A stretch of 33,680 nt of DNA. Origin: Coriobacteriales bacterium. GTDB taxonomy: Bacteria; Actinomycetota; Coriobacteriia; Coriobacteriales; Atopobiaceae. Of the stretch, positions 33,341-33,680 are shown in pieces. The DNA is taken from assembly GCA_030529665.1 (NCBI GenBank), contig JAUMWL010000012.1, positions 1 through 33,680 on the forward strand. The letters run 5' to 3'. A program made the translations under genes and the position numbers. Under the pieces are notes generated by a model. That model did no database searches. It was not told where the DNA came from and saw only the letters and a program-made list of their open reading frames with translations. Numbering within the stretch: position 1 is the stretch's first letter; each line of letters begins with the position of its first letter.

Positions 33341-33476
33341 GCCGTCCTCCGTTCTTGGTATGTGAGTACAACTTACAAGGCAATTATCTGCATAAGTTGG
33401 CAGCATGACGCACATGCATCGGCCAAAGGACGGCAGTGCTTGGCAGCGTCCGAACCGCGCAGCGTACCGGCGCGGT

Positions 33477-33680
33477 GTGCTGTGATTGCGAGCTGTGTGG
33501 GTTGGGACAGAAGGAGCGTGCTGTGTTTGCGAGCTGTGTGGCTCACGTGCAAGGAGGCGTGCTGTCTCAGCGAGCTGTGTGGGCCGGACCTGCCTTGGCG
33601 TGCTGTGATCGCGAGCTGTGTGGGTCGAGAAGGACGACATGTGCTGTGATTGCGAGCTGTATGGGTTATCGAGGCACACT
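33477..33680. repeat. Regular 41-bp array: 25 conserved plus 16 variable bases, five units, cut by the window end
   Basis: Conserved units lie at 33477-33501, 33518-33542, 33559-33583, 33600-33624 and 33641-33665. Each reads GTGCTGT, five semi-variable bases (GATTG in two units), then CGAGCTGT and RTGGS. The 16-base spacers between them differ from one another. The period is exactly 41 bp in every step. A GTGCT at 33436 is in phase and may be a decayed first unit. It is not coding, since 41 is not a multiple of three. The rest of the intergenic region (33341-33476) holds the gene's leader and no further recognisable element. Role unknown. Confidence 0.85.

Follow-up and report, generated by a model that had tools for sequence, protein, structure and literature searches.

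Convergent, regularly spaced repeat arrays dispersed between genes of an Atopobiaceae genome: candidate phased sites for a DNA-binding protein

The window, the stretch of 33,680 nucleotides of Coriobacteriales DNA that was analysed, ends within an array of five copies of the 24-bp block GTGCTGTNWTNGCGAGCTGTGTGG, one of at least 77 such arrays that lie between genes of the same genome. Intact arrays are bipartite and convergent, with n right-pointing units, a 9-bp centre, and m left-pointing units. Related species carry arrays of the same architecture in which the block sequence has been replaced, the steps between units are quantised, and the blocks of orthologous arrays are better conserved than the DNA around them. 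We lean, with modest confidence, towards the view that these are dispersed BIME/REP-like intergenic elements composed of helically phased sites for a putative DNA-binding protein.

The array at the right end of the window

The five blocks start at 33477, 33518, 33559, 33600 and 33641, and every step is exactly 41 bp, confirming the strict period of five units proposed in the initial annotation of this DNA; the division into 25-bp blocks and 16-bp spacers given there is equivalent to the 24-bp blocks and 17-bp spacers measured here. The good blocks span 33477-33664. In shuffled sequence, the mean number of block matches was 0.07, and five were never reached. The annotation had the array begin at 33436, a position that is exactly one period upstream of the first good block, but at most a decayed unit is found there. 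As had been recognised, the array runs off the window, with the contig end at 33680 lying inside the array, 16 bp past block 5 and short of where the centre or a further unit would be expected. The features are as follows.

31880-33340, minus strand: neighbour gene, glycoside hydrolase family 1 (GH1; 6-phospho-beta-glucosidase-like), Pfam Glyco_hydro_1 E=1.3e-123
33436-33476, plus strand: possible decayed outer unit (GTGCT exactly one period upstream) and outer spacer, read from the sequence; the block pattern with 3 mismatches finds no match
33477-33500, plus strand: block 1, GTGCTGTGATTGCGAGCTGTGTGG (sequence, block pattern match)
33501-33517, plus strand: spacer 1, 17 bp (sequence)
33518-33541, plus strand: block 2, core GTTTGC (sequence, block pattern match)
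33542-33558, plus strand: spacer 2, 17 bp (sequence)
33559-33582, plus strand: block 3, core CTCAGC (sequence, block pattern match)
33583-33599, plus strand: spacer 3, 17 bp (sequence)
33600-33623, plus strand: block 4, core GATCGC (sequence, block pattern match)
33624-33640, plus strand: spacer 4, 17 bp (sequence)
33641-33664, plus strand: block 5, GTATGG in place of GTGTGG (sequence, block pattern match)

Judged by its sequence, the window array looks like one arm of a bipartite element and, since other arrays are bipartite, the missing part is suggested to be a 9-bp centre followed by an opposite-facing arm. The array lies upstream of the GH1 gene, 136 bp from its ATG. The closest relative of this gene outside its own genome is found in an Atopobiaceae MAG from sheep jejunum (89% identity), suggesting that the present genome is probably also a gut Atopobiaceae MAG.

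Arrays across the genome

The assembly (3.18 Mb in 315 contigs, 88% complete) contains 407 matches to the block with at most 2 mismatches, 217 forward and 190 reverse, and the reversed-pattern control gave none. The set analysed comprises 77 arrays with 409 units, drawn from 60 stretches totalling 744 kb; the arrays, of which the genome has at least 77, are spread over more than 50 contigs. Many contigs of this genome end inside an array (for instance, at the start of C5 and at the ends of C7, C42 and C70), and short-read assembly thus probably undercounts them. This number and dispersal disfavour an iteron-like or partition-like site, and likewise a regulatory region of one gene, all of which had been put forward from the window alone. 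Replication iterons and parS sites, which occupy one or a few loci beside a replication or partition gene, match poorly on the same grounds, the window array moreover lying beside a GH1 gene.

The geometry of the arrays is close to invariant. The gap at the centre is exactly 9 bp in 64 centres, while two others are wider by 41 bp, as would result from decay of a unit at the centre. Among 260 within-arm steps of less than 60 bp, 252 are 41 bp, with 40 bp in three cases, 42 bp in two, 31 bp in two and 52 bp in one.

None of the 77 arrays falls within a predicted gene, where predictions come from a home-made hexamer gene model whose calls are approximate. The 3' ends of neighbouring genes lie closer to the arrays (median distance 91 bp) than 5' ends do (204 bp; p=2e-5), and neither convergent nor divergent gene pairs are obviously favoured.

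Block variants and spacers

The grouped variation noticed inside the block is real. Positions 7-12 draw on a small vocabulary (GATTGC, CTTTGC, CTTTTG, AATCGC, CTTTTC), and positions 15 and 17 vary together, giving GAGCTG, GAGCAG or GACCAG. The core vocabulary is largely independent of the spacer family and of the mirrored unit in the opposite arm. By inspection, the 24-bp consensus has no inverted repeat longer than the 3-bp GCT/AGC, and is not a palindrome.

The spacers had been described as unrelated, and they look so within the window array, but across the genome a small number of families accounts for them. Their mean identity is ~39% across the genome, and nearest-neighbour spacers are closer than column-shuffled controls (12.3 vs 11.2 of 16), so that they derive from a number of families, for example GTCGTTTCCGGCCATG and CTCGCGCGCCCGGAGG. 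A search for spacer matches elsewhere, which the annotation had recommended, gave no sign of captured DNA: 101 of 252 spacers matched other DNA of their own genome, as against 105.5 for column-shuffled controls. The block itself had no exact match in IMG/VR, which was searched for viral carriage.

In a subset of arrays, here termed class I, one arm carries one spacer family, the other arm carries other families, and outer hairpin sequences are held in common. A hairpin-like repeat, GATGTGATTTGCGACATTTC...TGTCGCTTTTCGCATCACGA, adjoins one arm of class I arrays (L051:8360-8450, L038 after 8898, L044 after 2043, and others); across 16 genomes of the genus, it has 42 copies in the present genome and none in the 15 relatives. 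Next to the opposite arm of these arrays lies another hairpin repeat, which is TGGCGGATTGGGGCTTGGCCCCAAATCCGCCA-like (L042:18650-18747, L093 before 3486, and others). The idea of two fixed arm types for all arrays was rejected, as orientation by spacer type scored no better than re-paired arms.

Related species: different blocks with stepped spacing

The relatives are represented by one MAG per species, with searches sampling part of each genome, and their arrays were found by a period search and by a centre search. The block search that had been suggested for related genomes showed the block to be essentially absent from 39 others; in G013, a 41-bp pair of the present block lies at a contig start (L031). 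No array lies upstream of the bglA orthologues (82-86% DNA identity) in those relatives with a readable region. The centre GTGTGG-N9-CCACAC occurs 70 times in the present genome and 40 times in G012, and 0-2 times in each of 99 other genomes.

The sister species G010 and G014 have a different block, TAACGGAAANCGAGCTTGTGGC, in the same architecture, and the start-to-start distance at their centre is constant at 24 bp. In unit scans, their 96 steps are of 30-31, 40-42 or 51-53 bp only, with none between, although the two species have three or more orthologous arrays in common, and steps within an array are partly mutual copies, so that the independent events are far fewer than 96. A third block is found in G012, with steps of 30 bp (22 cases) and 41 bp (one case), and with 30 of 31 centres measuring 33 bp start to start, which is the same 9-bp centre as in the present genome. 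The orientation of G012 arrays alternates in ~102-bp repeats, that is, by repeated inversions, whereas there is a single inversion per array in the present genome, G010 and G014. The annotation had asked whether spacing stays at 41 bp: in the present genome nearly all steps do, and relatives use ~30, 41 and ~52 bp.

Taking each value once per array, the G010 and G014 steps have a phase concentration of R=0.97 at 10.9 bp, where the null maximum in 2000 draws was 0.56; the fitted step is slightly greater than the 10.5 bp of relaxed B-DNA. In a stricter test, three random step levels would be evenly spaced by 10-11.5 bp with a chance of ~0.006, and the even spacing is in this respect suggestive, not overwhelming. 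Because nearly all steps of the present genome are 41 bp, the spacing ladder rests mainly on G010 and G014. The block sequence is replaced from species to species, and the spacing shifts in increments of ~10.9 bp. Selection on spacing, with blocks placed on one face of the helix, had been proposed from the window array, and is supported by the 31- and 52-bp exceptions of the present genome together with the three step lengths of its relatives.

At least three arrays occupy the same loci in G010 and G014, with flanks that are 85-92% identical. Block positions differ at 15/220, 24/176 and 30/154 sites in the three loci (69/550 in total, or 12.5%), compared with 89/398, 70/170 and 96/186 columns outside the blocks (255/754, or 34%), a comparison in which resemblance to the block profile is built in by the choice of units, and in which the non-block divergence is approximate because the alignment of that DNA is partly forced. 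Unit number varies between the orthologues and whole arms change in concert, while the steps stay on the three levels.

Phased sites for a putative DNA-binding protein

Conserved blocks, spacers that diverge at a fixed length, length changes of about whole turns, and a fixed head-on centre are most economically explained by a block-binding protein whose bound copies touch one another. The elements are non-coding and dispersed between genes, and each unit would provide a 22-24 bp site for a putative sequence-specific, probably self-associating, DNA-binding protein. Sites would be co-oriented along each arm and meet head-on at the centre. Spacing kept at whole helical turns, for which the R value at 10.9 bp and the two exceptional step lengths of the present genome speak, would place the bound proteins on one DNA face, where they could form a lattice, bend or loop, with neighbour contacts on one face of the duplex and a special contact at the centre. 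The elements accumulate between genes, mostly nearer to gene ends than to gene starts, and would be expected to serve as BIME-like chromosome-organising or insulating sites. For their spread, we favour sites that the host uses and that may multiply as repeats besides, an idea already put forward for BIMEs. More tentatively, it is possible, though doubtful, that Atopobiaceae have a genus-wide chromosome-organising system, in which a putative DNA-binding protein acts on hundreds of convergent phased sites whose word is replaced in each species, while the geometry of turn-quantised steps and a fixed head-on centre is kept.

Alternative explanations

The main rival is a purely selfish one, in which the arrays are BIME/REPIN-like repeats whose block is recognised in trans by a transposase (a RAYT-type TnpA_REP or other), the enzyme setting the spacing and the host gaining nothing. 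This is somewhat unlikely. In its favour, the arrays are high in copy, strictly intergenic, lineage-specific and absent from orthologous sites, the ~102-bp alternation in G012 is much like that of BIMEs, and the common outer hairpins and arm types of class I elements suggest that whole elements are probably copied. Against it, the single block is not a palindrome, and neither target-site duplications nor sharp boundaries were seen by eye. Hits to Y1 transposases in the present genome (88% complete) are broken fragments with no intact gene, and in G010 and G012, which have one Y1 protein each, no array lies within 1.5 kb of it, in contrast to RAYT genes, which are flanked by their repeats. A RAYT was rejected as the mobiliser on this evidence. 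Termini of the MITE type were looked for, and no ends common to all arrays were found, the outer hairpins being shared by a subset.

It is unlikely that the arms act by pairing in RNA or single-stranded DNA after transcription or replication, as a 3' UTR structure or an enzyme-recognised hairpin. Opposing arms do make every block complementary to one in the other arm, and the arrays are closer to gene 3' ends. A function of the folded strand predicts covariation of mirrored blocks, however, and the agreement between mirrored blocks does not exceed that between random pairs, both in the present genome (3.59 vs 3.70 of 6) and in G010 and G014; mirrored spacers are less alike than spacers from different arrays (0.328 vs 0.389), the two arms are frequently unequal in number of units and in step, and an Rfam search gave no match. 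A selected hairpin is thus argued against, and the DNA duplex is the likelier functional form.

A neutral minisatellite whose conserved core is homogenised by recombination, as raised in the initial annotation, is very improbable. Variation in unit number between orthologous arrays and the concerted change of some arrays would fit, but the step is exactly 41 bp in 252 of 260 cases despite strong spacer divergence, step changes in relatives are by about whole turns only, and orthologous loci keep their blocks better than non-block DNA. A CRISPR-like memory array with captured spacers of 16-17 bp, for which the regular repeat and spacer lengths might speak, is extremely improbable, given the flip of orientation at the centre, the 77 or more loci, the spacer families, and spacer matches to other DNA of the genome that do not exceed controls.

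Relation to known repeats

Among known repeats, the arrays come closest to the BIME/REP class of enterobacteria and pseudomonads (PMC2817692), which is likewise high-copy, intergenic, regularly spaced, present in both orientations and lineage-specific in sequence; at 407 blocks, with no array in a predicted gene, the present family exceeds the >100 copies and shares the extragenic location of that class. BIME/REP units are palindromic, capable of forming stem-loops, and strictly alternating, unlike the non-palindromic blocks described here or the head-to-tail arms with a single central inversion of the present genome, G010 and G014 (G012 arrays invert repeatedly), and steps quantised at ~30, 41 and 52 bp are a further difference. 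RAYT transposases are the agents linked to REP elements (PMC2817692), and no RAYT gene flanked by arrays was found among the Y1 loci of the present assembly, G010 and G012. To our knowledge, turn-quantised spacing, species-specific words and a bipartite convergent layout are undescribed in the literature searched; such arrays were not found described for Atopobiaceae in the open-access papers covered, which is not proof of absence.

Resemblances to other repeats are more limited. BOX elements of Streptococcus pneumoniae lie between genes and are assembled from modules, the internal ones varying in number, and the arrays are like them in modular intergenic makeup and variable unit number. BOX elements, however, have unlike end modules and a stem-loop form, whereas here the units are all alike, pairing is unsupported and spacers diverge freely at a fixed length. 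Iterons of plasmid origins are direct repeats of ~20 bp that lie an integral number of helical turns apart, and are thus similar in repeat size and turn-spaced direct repetition, but they occupy one locus per replicon, in contrast to the 77 or more chromosomal arrays with convergent arms. The arrays also differ from the intergenic TAACTGA repeats of marine Beggiatoaceae (PMC4679880), where a 7-bp unit is repeated directly, with one sequence across distant phyla, often directly upstream of start codons.

What function REP/BIME-type repeats have for the cell, if any, is a long-standing question. The several species here amount to a natural experiment in which sequence changes and helical geometry stays constant; the contrast between them suggests that phase and orientation matter and that the spacer and the exact word do not. 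It also makes the putative protein partner directly testable, and offers a route to it through co-divergence across the genus.

Other repeats observed

Elsewhere in the window, at 2423-2604, two groups of tandem repeats with a 30-bp unit lie near one another, GCGTTTGCTCGGATTGAGACCTGTGGCGCG in 2 perfect copies and GCAAACCGATTGCCACTGGCCTCAATCCCA in 3.2 copies that have diverged; the groups appear partly inverted relative to each other. Upstream of the bglA orthologue of G011 (L221:19597-19762) lie different tandem repeats, with 27-bp ACGGGGCGCTGCGAGTGTGTTTGTGTA and 16-bp CGGTGTGGCGACAAGC units. In the sampled stretches of G013 and G001, the commonest dispersed 12-mers are the words GGGGACTGTCCCC and GGGGACAGTCCCC, apparently a different intergenic palindrome family. 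Finally, G007 carries a 73-bp tandem array (L240:330-857) with the internal inverted words GCTGCGTGGCGTGG and CACGCAGAGACGTGCAT, which may be the form that the element takes in that species.
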